In this document: positions 17,470 through 48,800 of the stretch, piece by piece
How the letters are laid out: the number at the start of each line of letters is the position of its first letter
Numbering within the stretch: the stretch's first letter is position 1
NCBI GenBank assembly: GCA_000310025.1
Contig: FN649727.1
Location: 2,429,797-2,493,796, forward strand
Source: Ectocarpus siliculosus
Taxonomy: Eukaryota > Sar > Phaeophyceae > Ectocarpales > Ectocarpaceae
Length of the DNA stretch: 64,000 nucleotides
Direction: 5' to 3'
Made by a program: the position numbers and the translations under genes
The notes under the pieces: model-generated
Told to the model about the DNA's origin: nothing
Databases searched by the model: none
Seen by the model: only the letters and a program-made list of their open reading frames with translations

Positions 17470-20225
17470 ACGTCTAGATGTGGTGAGATTGATTAGATGT
17501 GGTTTGGCCAATTTGCATGGTGTGTAGATTGCTTGATTGGTGAGTCGAGGGTTGCCTTTGGCTGTTGTAATATATTGTTGAGAGGAAGTTTATCGTCTGT
17601 GTTTTCCCCGTTCTTCTTTGCTCAACAGAGTAAAACCGGCCCGTGCAGTCTTTCGAAGAAGCGGGGAGCGGGATGTGGAGATTTTTTTGGGCAAGCCAGC
17701 TGACGCAAGGGACTCTTGGCTTTGGGGGTAGCCTTGTCATGCGGACAAAGGAGAGCAATAAAAGAGTTTTTTGGGATTGCCTGACACCGATTTCCTTTGT
17801 TCTTGTTGGGTGTTTTTTCTTGTTGGCGTACCTCATGTGTTGTGCTTGATTTTACCGTCTTGTGGCCCTCTAGCTCTTGGGATAGCGGCTCCCTCCCATC
17901 TCGCTGCTGCGGTGTAGGTACAGTAGCTTGTTTTCTTCGAGCGTACTCCATAGCCAAGGATTTATTTTTACCTTATGGCGTGCATGCTGCACAGACGGCA
18001 GAGAGGCGGCCCAATAAACGTTTTGAAACAGCAGCCGTAAGCACTTTGCGCCTCGAGCTTGCCAGCGCTCTTTGGCGAAAGAACAATATGTGCGTATTCG
18101 TGTTTCTGCGGTCTTTTTACGGTCAAATATAAAACGTTTGTGGTGCAGTCGCAGAATAGGGAGTGGTGGAACAGGGTGTTGTTGATGAGACCGGGGTGCA
18201 TGGCGTGGTATGTGTGAAGGTGTGTATGTGAGGTGTTGCCCACTTAAACGAGTACAGCAGCACGTTCCCAAGCGTTTGTTGGTCTCTAACAGTATAGTCA
18301 AGACAGAAATACATGACACGTGGCGACGCATTCTCGCGTTGGCTTGTTTTTTGGTAGGCCAAGCGCGTGGTTTGGTCCGGATCTACATTTCCTCTGACTC
18401 CTCTGTCATGGTACCAGATAGCTGAGAGGCCGCGGTCAGTCAACTTGTACATACCGCATGTGCATACGACAATCCGGTTCTTGTGCAGCTGTGTTTCGCT
18501 GATCGTTGTGCCAAGGAAGGAAAATTCTGGCGTGTTTGCTCGGTGCCACCGACATCCACCAGCTATTATACCCACCAAACACGACAGTAGTTTACTCCGT
18601 TCGGGCGATGGCGGGCTTTCAGACTTAATCGGACCACCTTCATCCTCTCATTTGGGCATGGTGTCTCGACCATCCTCCGTTGTGCTTAGCAAGCACGAGA
18701 ATTGGAAACACCGAGTTGATTGGTCGGCGATAGGAGCAAACCTCACCTGAGAAACTTTCTGAGTACAAGATGGAGGTGACGCATGTGCGTGAGGCGCCCC
18801 CACTAAGACCGCATCATGAAACTAACAAACACGGGCTCTTGTACAGCAAGCTCAAACAACATTTTCAGTGTCAACACCTGAGGTCACGCACACCGCAAAC
18901 ACGAAAGAGCGAAACCAAAGTGAACGACGTGCACTTTTGAAATGAAAGTGAAGCGAAGTATAATCACCAAAACGCCGAGGCTGAGAATGCATGGTTCGCT
19001 CACGTCTCCACATGGAAGTGTTTCGAGTTCAACGAGAGTTCCATAATCTTAGGTGGTCTTCTTTCCTCTGTGCTCGCGGGCCCTCATGACGGGCGACGTC
19101 TCCAGGGTGTACCAGTTTAGCCATGACGCTTTCCAGGCAACAGCTTATCTTTGCTACTGAAGCATGCATGCGATGAGGGTTTCACCTGCAGGTTCATGAG
19201 AAGGGCGATGCCTTCGCTGTGTATAGTCTTGGGGAGGCAAGGCCTCAACAGGCAGGTGCGAGGGAGCCAAACGCAAACATGTCTGAACCACATTGGGGTC
19301 TGCGCGACACTCCCTTACAATTTCATTACCGCCCACTACTGTGGCGGGCGTACCACAGCAGAGTAGTAAATGGTAAACCGTTGTCAAAGAATGGCGGCTA
19401 GGCATACCACCCACCGCGAATCTCGTGCGCTTCTCGTGGGTTATAAAGGTTTAATGTGCATAGAACGCCCAGGGCACCCTTCGCACACGAAAAACCATCG
19501 ACATATCGTGTGGGGGAGGATTTGATCGGGTCTACATGCTGAACGACTCGTTTAAACCAAAACTTCCCCGTCGCAAGGGCCCGGTCTCGGTGCACTCTCG
19601 CGAACACCTGCACTACCCGTAGGTGCATGCAGCCACGAGCGGCGCAATAGGGCTCGACCACCAACCCCCCCTCCTCACGGGACACAATCACCGGTACAAG
19701 CGGTGGGGAACATTATCGCTACAAGTGTAGCGAACAAGCAAGAGTCACCAACACGTATGCATACACCACAACTCACGTATGTACCTCGTGGCACGCACAA
19801 CAACTCAGAGCGGCCAGGCCGAGGGGAGTGGGGGGCGGGGGTCAATACTGGCATTTTCGTTCAGTGCTGGACTATCAGGAAGCGAAACCGCCCCCAAAAA
19901 ACAACCACGGCCCGGACGGGTCCAATGCGACTGCCCAGGCCAACTGCGGTGCTCGCCACAACCTGCCACGACAATTCCAGTCCCTGTGACGAAGGCTGGC
20001 ACCCGACAGCCATCATGCGACGGTGGTCGTCATGGATCATACAACAGGACCTTGAAGACCTCCGGCACCTTCTCTTCCTCATTTTTGGGCAGTCGTATTG
20101 ACGACCCGTCCATATCTAGAGCGCCGTCCTCTCCTCCGGTTTGCTAGCCTGCTATTCCCCCCCCCCCCCCCCCAAATATGAAAAACTTGTGAGGCATTCC
20201 TTTCGCTTCTTCCATCCTTGTCTGT
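17470..20225. other. Gene-free stretch between convergent 3' ends
   Basis: 2.75 kb lie between the ftsZ stop at 17469 and the stop of the SOD-like gene at 20226 (minus). The open frames present, including minus 18123-18578 and plus 19703-20147, show no domain and no supporting splice sites. A 17-base C run lies at about 20157-20173. The two 3' UTRs probably occupy part of it. Confidence 0.5.
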
Positions 20226-22903
20226 CTACTTGGAAGCCGCAATGCCCACCACGCCCCCCCACACCCTGGCTCCCGCGTTACCCGTTGTGAAAAACAACTC
20301 GTGGCCCCCCTTGAAAAACAAAAAAACAAGCGGGCGGGGACAAACGGCAGTTGTGAGTCAGGGCGCGCGCGGGGGGCTTGGTGAAAAACAGCGGTGGCCC
20401 CCCTCAGCATCGAGGAGCGTTACAGCAGTTAGGCCTTCGCATTGGCCATCGGAGGCTTTTCCGTGTTTATCATCGCCGAACACGCGAAAATATCGTGCTT
20501 TCTGCACGGGAGCAAAAGCAACAGGGGTGGAGAAGATCCAACGACACATTGGTAGCCGAAGCCAACACGCAACCGCTTTCAGTGCACCGGATGACCTGCG
20601 GAGAACCGACCGGAGCGTGTTATCCCAAACCTGGGAACAAGCGTACAGGTGGCCCGCGTCACATTCATGGTCTGCAACGAAGAGCCACATGGCGCCGACA
20701 CCCAACATGGCCGGCGGAAAATCCGACGTCATCCGTCCCGACAAAGTAGTCTTCGGGATGCGAACGCCTACTGGCAACACCGCAACACGACCAACATGAT
20801 AGTTGGTACGTATCTCCCTCTGTTTCCGACGTAATAGCTCCCCCCGCTCTCACCCGGCCAAGGTCATCTTCCCCTGCAGTGATGATGATAGACCGCCCGA
20901 TGATAGAGTGGGGCCCGATAAGCCTCACCATTCGGTCTTCCAAGTGCACCTTGCACACGCCAGCATCGTCCGCGTCTATGTTCCCTGTGTGGCATGGCGG
21001 GCAGGCAGGCACACAGAGCGGAAAAGCGTTGTTGTTGATGTCATCGTCGTCGTTTTTGGTGTGTGAGTGCGGTACCCAGCGGGCGGGTGAGGGAAAGGAG
21101 ACGAGACGAAGCGAGATGATTGAGGGCGCTTGGGGCGTTTATTGTTTATTGCTCGGTTCGTGGAAAGAGCGCCCGGGGGTTGCTCAATTTTTGCTTGACT
21201 TCGTCCTGTACCCTTTAAGAACCCTACTGCCAAAAATACATCCATGTTCAATTCATCAACTTCTCCAGCTACGTCAGCACATGGGCATCCTCCACATCGG
21301 GATTCCTCTTCCTACTCCTACTCCCCTCCACATTTCCCCCTTTCTTCTGTTGCAGCAAGCTCAGGCCCCCAGCCGCTCTGGTCGCTTGCCAGGCAAGAAG
21401 AACGAGCCAACGCTTAAACTTGAGCTTCTTTTCGTACAGCCCACCTGTCCATGCAGACAAGCACCTACTACAGCAGGCAACTCACCCAAGTCCCCCACCA
21501 TTCGGTCCTCGTCGTCCGGAGCGCCGTGATTCTTGCTGAACGGGTTGAAGATGCCTCCCGCACTTACCAAACCCTCGGAAAAGTCCCCAAAAACGTGCAC
21601 GCGGATGCCGTGTCGGCCCTGGAGCGGGCGGGGCAGAGTCATTGCGAACGATGAACAAGAACGCGCAGCAGGTTGATGTTTTTGACGGGGGAGAACAAGA
21701 GCGACGGCCCCGAGCCGTAAGCGCGGCCGGTTCACAAGCCGCTTTTTCTTTAGTCACCGTTTCAAGAACCTACGCACGCAGGCACGCGCTGGACAATCTA
21801 GGGACGAGCGGATTCATTCCTTCACCAACATCTCAGCTGTTGGTTAAACCTAGTACTCCCGGCGAAACTGTAGACACGAGAGAGGTCGGTCGGAAACCAC
21901 CGCAGTCCCTCCCTTTCACAGGGTGATTGGTCACAACCTTTCGAGCAACTCGCAACGTCAATGGCCGACATATCATGCGAGGTACCCAAGGACCTACACA
22001 AAAGGCGACCCAAAAAAAGTTTGGTCACTGTTATAACATCGCCCCAAGCTCACCATTGGCAAGCAGCAGCAGCCCTTGCGTCGTGTCAACGTGAACGAGC
22101 TAATCTACAGCAATACTTGGCCGTACAGTACAGGCGAAAAAAAAAACAGCCGCAAGTGGCGGTGTTAGCATGTCACGTGTGGACAAGCCCCAACATCACG
22201 AATGCAGCCCAAGAACGTACAAGGGGATTCGACATTTGCCTCCACCCTAGTTTTTTCAGGTAACTCTTTGGATTCTCAGCCGTGCACTGATCATGGCTGC
22301 AGCAGCGACTCACCGGCCTCATGCCTGCGATCTCTCCCGAAATGATGGTGGGGGCTTCCTCCTGGGCCTTTTGATCGTGGGTACATACATCGAACGGGGG
22401 GGTGGGGGGGGGGGGGCGAAGTAACGACAGGCAGTGTGAGGCGAAGCCCGAGCTTGACGGCCAATGGATAATGAGATAGTGAGTGCAATACGACCCGTGG
22501 TCAGGTGTAGGAAGAAGCCTCGCAACCCGGGTGCCCGGGTGTGTTGCATATCCTAACTGCCGGTGCCATCTTCCCTTTGTACATAACAAGACTTTCTTTG
22601 TGGATACAAGGGTCTCGAGGCTGTGCGGACTTGGCGCATGCCACCTGCTTCATCAAAGGTTGTGGAGATACGAGAAAAACACGAGCACCCAACCACATGG
22701 GTTATGAAATTTAATTGCGCCGCTGCCGCTTGGGGGTGCAAAGCAGAGCTTGCTCTCTGAGAACCTCCTGCTGCTGTTTGCGAGCACCGTTCGTTCAAAA
22801 CCATCTTGAGCAGATGCCCCATTCTCCCGTTCACCTGTGAAAGCATCAGAGATCCAGTAAGCCCCTCCTCGTCGCTCGTCATCACGCAGCTTGCCTTCGC
22901 CAT
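20226..22903 (-). CDS. Cu/Zn superoxide dismutase-fold protein lacking most metal ligands, five exons
   Basis: Exons in transcript order: 22903-22835, 22367-22314, 21618-21486, 20984-20854, 20309-20226. They give 156 residues, and every junction keeps phase. The exon 2 acceptor could instead be at 22361. The sequence aligns without gaps to Cu/Zn SOD from [10 protein letters not shown] through [30 protein letters not shown] and TTGNAGAR to the C-terminus. In human SOD1 numbering, His46 is Arg, His63 is Ile, His80 is Met and His120 is Thr, while His48, His71 and Asp83 remain. The disulfide cysteines Cys57 and Cys146 are Leu and Gly. Arg143 is kept. The frame is intact, so it does not look like a pseudogene, but copper-dependent dismutation is not expected. 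There is no targeting peptide, so it is presumably cytosolic. It is divergent from the ankyrin/zinc-finger gene. Confidence 0.85.
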
Positions 22904-23654
22904 GGTTCTAACTCGGTGCTTACTTGGGTGCTGCCTGTTCTGATCAGCGTGTAGCGAGAGCAGTACACAGCAGCAGCAGGTTCCCGGCTGGCCGACCGAG
23001 GGGGCCACGCAACCCGAAACCAAGGAAGGGTTTTCACAGGCTAGATCGGACAGGATTCTCGCTGGCGGGAGAGGGGGGACGGCGGGGGATATTTTTCTCT
23101 TTCGACCGCGCAGCGCAGTGCTGTTGGATCCCCGACGCTGCTGCCACTGAAGTATTGACAACGAAGGGCGTCGAGCATGAGACGCCTTGAATACGAAGCC
23201 ATTTAATTAATTTCCCATCGTTGCTAATATTTGCCCTTGGTCTCTTTAACCTATGACGCTGGGGCGGATGCTACATCTGTATCTATCTTCCGTTGCGGTG
23301 GATACAGAGTGTGGCGGTCGGTCTGCGTCGAAACTGTCGACGGTCCCTCACAGCAGTCGGGCCGCATTCGCCCAATCACCTTAAAGTCATTGCGTTAAAG
23401 TGCTTAAGGGCAGCGCACAGGTTGTCAAACCTGGGGATACGGCTACAGCTAGCGATCGCCACCACATTGCGACTATGCGTTGTCCCCAACACTGCAGTTT
23501 GGCAAGTGGCGGAAAGTGAGCATTGTCTGTCCAAGTGTCCCGCCGACACACCCTGGGCATGGTCTCATCACCATGTTCCTTCCGCCGCGCTCTGCACATA
23601 CTGCGACCCAAACGTGAAGATATTTGAATATCACTTGTGATGATTTACCAAGGC
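22904..23654. promoter_or_regulatory. Divergent (possibly bidirectional) promoter region
   Basis: About 750 bp separate the start codons of the SOD-like gene (minus, 22903) and the ankyrin/zinc-finger gene (plus, 23655, or 23640 if an upstream in-frame ATG is used). The spacing suggests shared regulatory DNA. No specific motif is identified. Confidence 0.4.
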
Positions 23655-26600
23655 ATGAGTATGGGGCCAGAAGAGCATGACTCCGTTCATTCAGCTAGCA
23701 CGGGATTATTCTCGGGCCCAGACATCGCGGGGCAGGTGGAGGAGCTTGAAAAGAGGGTAGCACAACAGGTGATCATGTTGTTGTTGTCTGCACATTAATG
23801 TGGAGGTGGAATTATCATGTCTACTTTACTCCGTACCATATATATATCGCAGTGGATATCTCCCATCTCTGTTTCATTGCCGCCTATGCATGGGCAACAT
23901 GCGATACAACCATAGAGAGCCCCGCGTAGGCGACATGCATATGATAGTCAACATACCTGTAGGCGACTGGGCGGCGCCGACGTTCGCCGCAGGCAGGCAT
24001 GTTTTGCAGATGGAGCGACAGACACACACATCAAGAATGCCTTCATGACAGTGGATCTACTGTACCAATCTCTTGCTAACACTTGCAAGCGTAGCTGCAG
24101 TGCAATAATGCATCAGAAGCAGACATGGTTTCGGGTGCTTCTTTGAACGCGCCCATTAGATTCTAGACTACTGTAAAGCAGTACAGTATAAGGAACGCTG
24201 TCATTTCGCGTTTTTCGCGGGTAATACGGCCTCGTGCACATCACGCGGAGACCTATGTAACATGCTGACGTATTTGAGCGCGTCAGCTGTCTTTTGAACC
24301 AGAGTTTGAGCCCCCCCTGACCCCAACCGATATATGGTGTACTCAGCCACCGTAGTCTAGTGTTGCCTGCGCCGTGTTCAGTAGTTCGAACGTCTCAACC
24401 ACTAAGCCCATGACTACATGTAAATTATACCTTCACTTTTCAGGCATGCAAGGACTTGACGCTCGCAGCCGCCGCCGGCAAGACCTCCGACGTGGTAAGG
24501 TCCATTGAGCTAGGAGGGGATGTGGACACGACCCTCAACACTTTCACCCCGCTCATGCGCGCGGCGACCTGGGGTCACGTCGACACGCTGGCCACCCTAA
24601 TCGCCGAAGGCGCCGACATGTTCGCAACGGATAGGCAGGGTCGGACAGCTCTGGACTGGAGTCGCATCGCGCGACGCGACAAGGCGGCTCGAATTTTGGA
24701 GCGGGCGATGGAGAACGAGATTCGATACCGCAGGTAGAGAACATGAAGTACTGTATACATAGATAGGAGTACTCGATATATGTTGCTATTGTAGTCTACA
24801 AAGCCCGCATATGCTTGAACCCCATGGCAGTACCATCTTCGTAGCTTCGACCCTATTGAAAAGAAGGTACAACCTTACAGTTGCTACAGTCTAGTTTATC
24901 GTGGTGCCTTCACAGAACCTGAAACAAAGCTATAATCGATACCCACCCAAGCGGAAATGCGCAAACAGAAGGATCATAGGATGGATGTCATAGATGCGAA
25001 AACATCAGGGATCTCCGACAGGTACAATTGTTCGTTCAACAAGACGACCAAGCCGGGCAAACGTTCTCCCAATGTGGTAGAAGCATGCCAACACCAACAA
25101 CGTCTGCTGATTTTCCTCAACAAAATACCACATCCAGAGAGGCAACCAAGGCAGTTCGAGGCGACAAGGAGCTGTGGGCTGTGATAGAGGCCAACGCGAG
25201 GCACGCCCGCGAGGTGGCTCACGCAGTGAACGCTCGAGACCTCAAAGAGGTTAAGCGAATCGTCGATCGGGCACAGCTGACCCGGGACAAGTTTGTGTCC
25301 GTGTGCGATCGCCTCGGGTTTCGGAGAAGAGAAGAGGCGAACGAACGAGCGAGAGAGAGTAGTTGTGGTGGCAGTGGTGAGGCACCAGCATCCACCGTAG
25401 AACAAGCATTGAGTGTTTGTCCGACTCCACCGACAGCTGCGGAAAAACCGAGTGTTGCAGCACTAGCAACGCCCTGGACAGCTGAAGATGGCACCGAACC
25501 GAACGACGGTTCGTTGCTAAGAAGAATTCCGGTATTCTTTCTCGATGCCGAGGGGCGAGGGGGCACAACGGCGCTCGCGCTGGCGACGATCGAAAACGAT
25601 GCCGAGACGGTGCGGCGTCTCATGAAGGAGGTGGGAAGCAAACCTTGTTGTTCTGAAGTAAACGGTGAATGAACGACGGTGCATGATGCACCCAATAAAA
25701 ATATCATCCTTTCTGACCAACACAAGAGTTTTGATGACAGCAGCAACAAACGCGATTTCCAACTCCCAGGACAACACTCTGTTTGCTCTCATGACGCAAG
25801 CTTCAAAAGAAGCCATAGCCCGTAATTCGAGTTCGTTCTATGTTCAAACTGCAGTTTCTTCCCTTGCGGGTATTGAATTGTTGCCCCCCCGAGAATTCAT
25901 AGTGTTCTGCAGCTGTTCCAGTCGGCGATTAATGGCCTCTCTCGACAGAAAATAGGCCACGTTCACGGTCTCGCGTTGAATCGTAAACGTAGAGATGTTC
26001 AAAACAGAGCATGCCTGCCACAATTTGTACATAGTGCTCCTTTGCAAACTGCATAAATACAGGGAGCGGACCCTGGTGTCGAAGCGAGCAGTGGCCACAC
26101 AGCTCTCAGCTGGGCAGCCGTGTGCGGCTTCGACCTCGTCGCGGCCGAGCTGCTTCTTGGCAACAACACCAACAAGCGCAGCCGCAGCAGCAGCAGCAGC
26201 AGCAGCGGCTCGTCGAGGTCGGGGCCGATGCAAGACGCGATCAACGCAGTAACGAGGAGTACTTTGGTCGAGGGGAAGACAGCGCTGCACAACGCGGCCT
26301 TCAATGGGAATTCCGGGGTTGTCGTGCTCCTGTTAGACCGGCTTCGGGATCTTCTGCTGAGGGACGGGTGAGTCGACATGACCGATGGGGCGGCGGGGGG
26401 GGGGGCGTATGCAACTCGTTTCAAGTTGTTTGTTAGTTTCCTTGGTCGGCTACCATGTGTTTTACATTGACTCCTCGGGCAGTACAAGCACCCACCATGA
26501 CTATCCGGAACGATGCGCACAACGGGGTTTCATTTCGAGGGGCGGTATTTGACCCATCGAAAAAACCTCAGTTAAAAAACTTCCATCCACGTTCCAAACT

Positions 26601-45800: not shown

Positions 45801-48800
45801 ACCGCGTGTCCTGCTTCCCCGCCACGTCGCACTCCCGCCCCCTTCCCCCTGCCCACTCCGTGCCGCGCGTCCCTTGCGAACCAAAATCATGCACGGGCGC
45901 GGACACGCGCACATATGCACAGGCGACTACTTGCCCGATGCGACCTGTCGTTTGCAAGGCTTGCAAGAATAAGGTAGTGGCGTCGGCTCTTTCGAGACAC
46001 GAAGCGGAAACGTGCCCCATGAGGATGGTGGAGTGCGAACAAGGCTGTGGGGAAAAGGTTCCCGTGTCAGGCATATCCCGCCATCTCGCCAAGGTTTGTC
46101 ATGTTGACTACAAGCGTACATCGAAGTCAATTGTAGCGTTGTACATTTCAGCGGCAGATTTGGTGTGCGCGTATAGGACCTTAGGCAAGACTTGTTGCTG
46201 GGCATACGTTGAGCTCTGCGAGGGTGGAGGAACGGGTAGATTGCTACCAGTACCCGGAGTGTGTTTCGTCACAGGAAAAAGTGGAAGCGTTCTCTACTAG
46301 CGCATCGCCGTTGATTAGTGTTTCCACACACACCAACGTTCTAGACCGGCGAGAATTAGGTCATGTGTTGCTGAAAAATTGGCAAAGACAAACTTGACGA
46401 CGGAAAAACTGCACAGCAGTGTAAGAGTGTGAGAGTGACGATGTTGTTGGTTGAGGTGGCCGGGTGGCGGGTGGCGGAGGCCAGAGAAATTGGATTAAAA
46501 CACATCCGTGTCGGTTTGATTCGCCGGCGCCGCAGGGAGATTACGGCAGGTGTCAAAATAATCTGAGCTGGACGTGCCTCCACCATGACCACCCCCAAGT
46601 CTGCCTCCACCCTATTTCCCCCCACACACGGTCGGGTTGCTAAATCATGCGTGATACCAGCGAAACTGCAATAGGTTCGTCCTCGAAAAGAGCCATCAAC
46701 GTCTGTCACAATATCTGTCTGGATTAATTTATTCTTGCTTATACGTGCACGATTATTCCCGATAAATTGTGCGCATGAATGAGGCTATTCTTTTACGCCG
46801 AATCGCCGCTGCATGATATTGACTTTTCGTGACACCTGGCTGGACTGGACTCGGCTGACCGGGACTTGGATCAGACCTGTTCTCTCATGTGCGTGACGTG
46901 CCGGCTGGGCTGCGGGCAGTCGATGAGCCTCAAGATGCTGGCGGAGCACGAGAAATCCCTGTGCAGCGAGAGGTTTGTGAAGTGCAGATGGGGCTGCTCC
47001 GAGGACGTCAAGGTGCGGTTCGACACTCATAGGCTGGATAGATACAGAGTTGCAGCTCACACGGGTTGCAAACGAAATTAGGCTCGAGAGAATTCGGGGA
47101 GGGGAAACGTTGAATCGAGACCGTAGCAGGGCCTTCAGTAATACGGCACATCGCCGACCCAGGAGGTGTTAATGCCGTTTCCATCCGGTCGAGGTGAATC
47201 ACTACGCTACGTGATTTTGATGCCCATCCCGGGCTAAACGAGTCGTTGCACGTGAAAGCTGGAGCGGTGCTTGTTCTCTGCCGCGAACAACGTAATTTGG
47301 CAGCTATGACCAAAGCAGACCAAAGCAGAACCAACCTAGCTGTTCGATGCTAAGTTGCACATGCTTCTCGGCCAGCAAGAGGGCAAGATCGGAGAAGAAA
47401 ACTACGAAGAACAAACTCGCCAAACCGTTGTAATAGGTTAGGTAGGTTTGTCGAACAAAACTACACATCGTTTGTCTTTCTTCCGCCCTGATACACTTCA
47501 CCGTCCAGGCCAAGCACATCGACGACCACGAAAAGTTCGAGTGCAAGCACGCGGACGCCCCATGCGGAAACCGGTGCGGGTTGTACCTGCCCCTCGGCGA
47601 CATGAAGCGACACTACGCCGACTCGTGCGCGCACCGCTTCGTGCCGTGCGGCCTTGGCTGCGGGTATCGGGTTAGGGCGAAGGTAACCAACTCCGCCGTC
47701 TCGAGAGAGGGGGTTGGCGCGTCGTGTGATAGGACAGGAAATAAAGACTTGGGGACAAGTTCCAGCTACAGGTTAGACCGGGTAATACTCGAACCCGTCG
47801 CAACCGGGCTGTTTGAACCTCAGCCCTCCCGCTACCACCACCTATTTGTTGCTAGCGTCTCCACTTGCAGGCACGAATTAGCCTCTGCCGGACCTCGCTA
47901 TTCGACCAGAGCAACCAGCACCCCTAATACGTGTGCACGTAGAACAGTCTTCTCCGCCGCAAACACGCCGATCGAACCAACACAGCTTGTCTTGCTCGTC
48001 TCGAACCCCAGGACTTGCCCTTCCACGAGAGCAACGAGTGCGAGTCTCGCCTCATCTCGTGCCCGTCTGGGTGTGGCGGCGGCGGCAGCGGTGGCGGCGG
48101 CAACGACGAGAACAAGAGCGGCACCGCCACCGCCACCGCCACCGCCGTGTTTCCGGCTCGCGCTTTGGAGGTGCACATGATGTACGGCTGCGCCCTCCGC
48201 TTGGTGAAGTGCGCGGCGTGCGGTGACGAGGTGACGGCGAAAGACCTGGATTCTCACAAGAAGGACACATGCAGGTAGGTTTGGTGGCGGGTCGTTCGGC
48301 AATAACCAAGTGTATCTTCTCCGTTGTTGCCTGCGTACTCCTCTCTTTGATGTTTATGGGAGTCTCGCCGAACAGAGGCGTTTACTCACCTTAATGTGTG
48401 CAACTTCGCTTCGCATAAGGCATGCACATTGCCGTACGATAGGTGAGCCCCTGCAAGGTGTAGATATGTAGATATACTTTTGCAGATACCTCTAGCGAGA
48501 AAGGTACTTCCAGAAACCCTTGGCGTATCATTCGAAGAAGGAGAATGCGCAGCTACAAGAGTTGAAAAGCACAGCGGTAGAACGTTTTTAGCACAAAAGA
48601 ATAGCTGTCTCTCTACTTATGCCCCCTCACTTGAAAATATGCGTGTTCTTCTGCAGCCTACATCACTCATTCTAGCAGTTTTTTTTTTGACTGACGTCAT
48701 CGAAGTCGTCTCTTCTTGTGTAAGTTTTGAAAATGCAACAATGGAAGTCCGTCCCTTTGCTTCATACTCTTCTTCAGGCGGCGCCTGATTGCATGTGGGA

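Follow-up and report, generated by a model that had tools for sequence, protein, structure and literature searches.

The brown alga Ectocarpus siliculosus encodes a Cu/Zn superoxide dismutase (SOD) fold from which most of the metal-holding residues have been lost, in an intact gene at positions 20226–22903 of the 64,000-nucleotide stretch of DNA analysed here (the window). Searches of the 189-Mb genome found no other Sod_Cu gene, although gaps in the assembly mean that absence elsewhere is not proof. As most of the metal-holding residues are missing, the protein is probably kept for its shape and not its chemistry, and as copper cannot be held in the classical way it would not be a Cu/Zn-SOD in function. 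The preferred reading, with a probability of roughly 0.5, is that the product is a SOD-fold pseudoenzyme kept for protein binding, with superoxide removal left to Fe/Mn-SODs. Its non-catalytic part is well supported.

Gene structure and domain content

The gene lies on the minus strand and consists of five exons, its span being identical to the coordinates flagged at the outset. Exon 1 (22835–22903) starts with the ATG at 22903, contains the first 23 codons, and ends at the donor CAG/GTGAAC (splice point as a slash). Exon 2 (22314–22367; acceptor AAAAG/GCC, donor CCG/GTGAGT) is the weakest by similarity because it is matched at E = 0.014 when the protein is searched against the genome. Exon 3 (21486–21618) is the metal-loop exon and carries Arg46, His48, Leu57, Ile63, His71, Met80, and Asp83 in human numbering. 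It is matched by the Sod_Cu profile (E = 2.3e-11) at 2451271–2451417 of contig C2, to which the window belongs. Exon 4 (20854–20984), with the IIGR and DDLG motifs, Thr120, and Asp124, is matched by the same profile at 2450638–2450781 of C2 (E = 5.8e-6). Exon 5 (20226–20309; acceptor CAAG/GGG) encodes an FF loop, GNAG, Arg143, Trp145, and Gly146 before the TAG stop, and is matched by two canonical SODs in tblastn searches (E = 4.8e-5 and 0.002). The four introns of 467, 695, 501, and 544 bases are all GT...AG and the frame is open to the TAG, bearing out the five-exon frame proposed in the first-pass annotation.

The spliced CDS of 471 bases encodes 156 aa plus the TAG, giving a product of ~16.3 kDa. 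GC content by codon position is 0.61/0.46/0.74, compared to 0.53–0.57 in the introns. The reading frame is also open 5' of the ATG (ORF 22553–23206), yet has no earlier in-frame Met. The protein is presumably cytosolic, as it carries no N-terminal extension. Immediately upstream of the gene start, on the opposite strand, is an ankyrin-repeat exon (24414–24737, plus strand; Ank_4, 3.2e-10). Elsewhere in the window, positions 47446–48180 of the plus strand show a likeness to TRAF-type zinc fingers that is under the Pfam cut-off (22.8 vs. 27 bits).

Sod_Cu is the sole Pfam family in the protein (E = 1.6e-37, 129.3 bits), spanning residues 16–150 and profile positions 2–133 of 133. This whole-domain match places the protein within the Cu/Zn-SOD superfamily, while the NCBIfam profile SodCCaul scores far under its cut-off (22.1 vs. 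250 bits). Identity to four SOD chains is 47–51% (71/152, 75/149, 77/150, and 73/147 aligned residues). A gapless alignment had been claimed, which holds against the human-type chain after about residue 12, but one extra residue precedes this point, and aligning the silkworm-type chain takes gaps of 3 and 1. All six scaffold motifs said to remain (FGD, FNP, VGDLG, IIGR, DDLG, GNAG) are found in the spliced protein.

Loss of metal-site and disulfide residues

In human numbering the copper ligands 46, 48, 63, and 120 are Arg, His, Ile, and Thr, leaving one of four, and the zinc ligands 63, 71, 80, and 83 are Ile, His, Met, and Asp, leaving two of four. The disulfide pair Cys57/Cys146 is replaced by Leu/Gly. 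Neither the ligand sets nor the disulfide of a Cu/Zn-SOD enzyme is therefore present, and the substitutions initially read from the letters (H46R, H63I, H120T, H80M, C57L, C146G) are all correct when aligned to the four SOD chains. Further changes near the metal sites are F45I, E49V, S134F, and A145W, and loop residues that are SK in one canonical SOD are FF in the algal protein. Residues that are kept include the active-site Arg143 along with H43, H48, H71, D83, D124, D125, E132, and G147. Also kept are F50-G51-D52, I113-G114-R115, V148, G150, and I151, which are dimer-face residues of SOD1; V5S is an exception at a position of this face. An intact gene that encodes a SOD fold with its copper site disrupted is what characterises a pseudo-SOD.

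The changes had been described as clustering at metal and disulfide positions. Among 74 positions invariant in the four SOD chains, where engineered position 111 is excluded and position 83 is judged on three chains because 6dtk is mutated there, 22 are changed in the algal protein. These comprise 6/9 metal or disulfide positions and 16/65 others (p = 0.017), so the clustering stands, but only nominally, as the sites were picked from the same sequence. The 16 other changed positions, including V5S, count against the pseudoenzyme reading.

For wider scans the algal protein was aligned with three canonical SODs and the alignment used as the query. These gave 97 loci, consisting of 17 on viral contigs and the best 80 of 108 genome-contig relatives, and all seven ligands are present in 97/97. 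A scan of the C-terminal half, with patterns at residues 79–86 and 123–130 and so away from 46, 48, 63, 71, and 120, added 11 further loci with all seven ligands in 11/11. Across both sets, all seven ligands, and with them the four copper and four zinc positions, are intact in 108/108 homologous loci. The 97 loci and three PDB chains make up 100 sequences, 92 of them distinct. The algal protein keeps 10/10 non-ligand positions that are invariant in these 100 sequences but has lost 4/7 ligands (p = 0.015), with the invariance at residues 40–48 and 57–65 being partly built in as the first retrieval patterns span them. In columns beyond residue 66, which the retrieval patterns leave untouched, 2/4 ligands are lost vs. 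0/6 others, which is not significant alone (p = 0.13 by hand). At a 90% conservation threshold, 5/30 non-ligand positions are lost.

In a tree of 93 distinct rows the algal protein groups (97/97) with three animal-type SODs, the cyanobacterial contig L018, and nine viral-contig rows, although support for placing it beside L018 is weak (91/68). The algal protein has a terminal branch of 1.01 compared to a median of 0.23, with the bootstrap not settled, and relaxed selection would also give such a long branch. As a single query the algal protein retrieved seven stretches in viral contigs, none of which were confirmed as relatives, and no relatives were found in phages. Two side observations came from the comparison set. 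The SOD at L018:1501–1974 (PXPT01000004.1, Cyanobacteria bacterium QS_4_48_99) is an intronless 157-aa protein of the animal/plant cytosolic type with all ligands and bacterial-looking genes beside it; its grouping with animal SODs suggests transfer into the cyanobacterium. Separately, in 10/11 viral-contig loci of the C-terminal-half scan (L100–L106 and L108–L110) the SOD domain lies inside a long ORF of at least 443 aa and is preceded by a Cys-rich stretch. An example is L102:477–1805, where the stretch after the SOD domain may be ParB-like.

The chief alternative to the pseudoenzyme reading is residual zinc binding via His71 and Asp83. These residues, together with Asp124, His48, or water, would hold one fold-stabilising zinc in a copper-free protein with a structural or zinc-buffering role. 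Half of the zinc ligands are kept, and according to section 9 of PMC4460010 the same two are the only ones fully conserved in most of the diatom Cu-ZnSOD homologues, which are transcribed, though this sentence may describe alignment columns and not each sequence. However, the other two zinc ligands have become Ile and Met, position 46 is a new Arg, and the complete zinc set in all 108 comparison loci has no parallel in the alga. On balance a zinc-holding protein is unlikely, though some weak affinity for zinc may persist.

Probable selection and genome-wide context

It may instead be that the gene is in decay, with selection on the SOD lost and the frame open by chance. The long branch and the 22/74 changed positions would fit, but the frame is open across five exons with four intact introns and the ten invariant non-ligand residues are all kept. 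Neutral evolution was simulated in 10,000 runs from the canonical cyanobacterial CDS of L018, with random mutation, transitions making up half of the substitutions, and each run continuing until four ligands were lost, which took a median of 136 substitutions. No stop had arisen in 11.4% of runs, the ten invariant residues were all kept in 2.1%, and both held in 0.8%, or 0.05% when the absence of indels (assumed at 0.1 per substitution) was also required. At 0.8% of neutral runs decay is a poor account, with the simulation being a model and not a dN/dS estimate, and it is a slightly weaker contender than zinc binding. The proposal that the fold was kept for a non-catalytic role, and not through simple decay, is supported by the intact gene, the strong Sod_Cu match, the retained invariant residues, the simulation, and the diatom homologues described in PMC4460010. 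The gene is quite likely expressed and under purifying selection.

The Ectocarpus assembly searched contains 189,456,909 bases in 492 contigs, with gaps. With both the Sod_Cu profile and a canonical SOD, the matches were confined to exons 3 and 4 of the gene. A search with the 156-aa protein at E ≤ 10 recovered its five exons and nothing else, and a paralogue or retrocopy was rejected on this basis. Alternative exons restoring the missing His and Cys residues were also rejected, as two canonical SODs searched against the whole window found only the exons of this gene below E = 0.7. A six-frame scan of positions 19000–24500 contained no HVH-type motif. Fe/Mn-SOD exons are present at five places in the genome (ten matches), while a NiSOD search found no match here or in any control genome. 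Two chloroplast Fe-SODs of Ectocarpus are reported to be induced by copper (PMC4108028), and diverse SOD genes in brown algae are described by Liu and Wang 2020, as cited in PMC8873139. A photosystem-bound SOD, an idea from a chromerid paper (PMC5643376), was dropped as the chromerid ones are Fe-SODs. No description of this gene was found in the literature on brown algal and stramenopile SODs, covered through open papers and mostly at title and abstract level. The genome searches also revealed arrays of near-identical antenna (chlorophyll-binding) genes on contigs C92, C232, and C488; of 20 matches sharing a score of 127.6 bits, 18 are on these three contigs. One antenna protein of the genome matches FCP17 of PDB 9YGV with 409 bits, and as PMC13219633 describes 9YGV as giant kelp photosystem I, the match supports a brown algal origin.

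A SOD that still dismutates superoxide via another metal or a moved site is improbable. In its favour, Arg143 and Asp124 are retained, and a Paenibacillus SOD that has no cysteines shows activity even though it cannot form the disulfide (PMC10432803). Nonetheless, a single copper ligand is left, the whole protein contains six His, and the SK of one canonical loop is replaced by FF. Least credible of all, a copper chaperone for SOD (CCS) or CCS remnant would agree with the ligand losses in the SOD-like domain of some CCS proteins, but the N-terminal HMA domain is absent, no C-terminal CxC exists because the only cysteines are at positions 6 and 96, the genome searches revealed no active Cu/Zn-SOD as a client, and the ten HMA matches in the genome lie on C7, C8, and C18 with none on C2. 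The copper-chaperone-like role first suggested for the protein is therefore not supported.

A probable non-catalytic SOD fold and its known counterparts

Under the pseudoenzyme reading, this single-domain protein would maintain the SOD fold without a classical copper site. Arg, Ile, and Thr would refill the copper pocket, Leu and Gly adjoining the new Trp would take the place of the former disulfide, and Fe/Mn-SODs encoded elsewhere in the genome would remove superoxide. Tentatively, the product may dimerise like SOD1 with little or no bound metal, its surface serving to bind another protein. Dimerisation would be compatible with the kept dimer-face residues. The retention of the barrel motifs and most of the dimer face, alongside a refilled copper pocket and FF in place of the SK of one canonical loop, fits selection on the surface and barrel and not on the metal centre.

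The retention of His71 and Asp83 in the alga, as in diatoms, suggests that the loss of ligands may go far back in ochrophytes. However, the ligand set is complete in four diatoms belonging to three classes (PMC4460010), so the losses may be parallel; one old loss and several parallel losses are both possible. A more speculative proposal is that one ancient protein with the SOD1 fold is common to brown algae and most diatoms. It would have shed the copper site together with half of the zinc site and, in the alga, the disulfide, and would be conserved for binding other proteins without any metal. As this is the only Cu/Zn-SOD-family gene found in the alga, the lineage would then have kept the fold after losing the enzyme. 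If so, 'Cu/Zn-SOD' labels in brown algae and on ligand-poor diatom homologues would be wrong, and would be no guide to how much copper these algae demand or to their antioxidant capacity. The gene would also represent a natural split of the SOD1 fold from catalysis, in which non-catalytic scaffold roles are testable with no competing active enzyme found, and would show fold stability without full metals or a disulfide. A metal- and disulfide-poor immature state is linked to the misfolding of human SOD1. The gene is of interest as the sole member of its family found in a brown alga, with diatoms seeming to show a similar loss.

Several SOD-fold proteins offer comparisons, and the inert ones among them agree with the pseudoenzyme reading. 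The SOD-like domain of CCS has a SOD fold without full catalytic function, but CCS carries an HMA domain and a CxC and the algal protein has neither. The diatom homologues of PMC4460010 are likewise ochrophyte SOD folds with 42–52% identity to spinach SOD in which His71 and Asp83 are kept and other ligands vary, but they differ in that four species retain all ligands, and the likeness is by description and not by sequence. The authors treat the ligand-poor diatom proteins as Cu-ZnSODs; their data sets include the Ectocarpus genome, and the passages on these proteins do not mention an Ectocarpus Cu-ZnSOD. Poxvirus homologues from Shope fibroma, myxoma, and lumpy skin disease virus have a SOD fold in which copper ligands or catalytic residues are missing (PMC7712962). 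That of lumpy skin disease virus also lacks both disulfide cysteines, but is without the catalytic Arg that the alga keeps. The Shope fibroma virus homologue is described in the same source as inert and acting on host CCS, which it binds; a similar CCS-decoy role makes little sense in the alga, as the searches of its genome yielded no CCS and no active client SOD. In bacteria, the cysteine-less CuZnSOD of Paenibacillus lautus shares the absence of the conserved disulfide but keeps enzyme activity, whereas the copper site of the SOD-like protein YojM of Bacillus subtilis is disrupted, and YojM has neither copper nor activity (PMC10432803). The likeness to YojM is one of description and not sequence, and the inactivity of the algal protein is a prediction. 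Inert SOD homologues are thus already known in poxviruses and Bacillus, and the algal gene adds to them.
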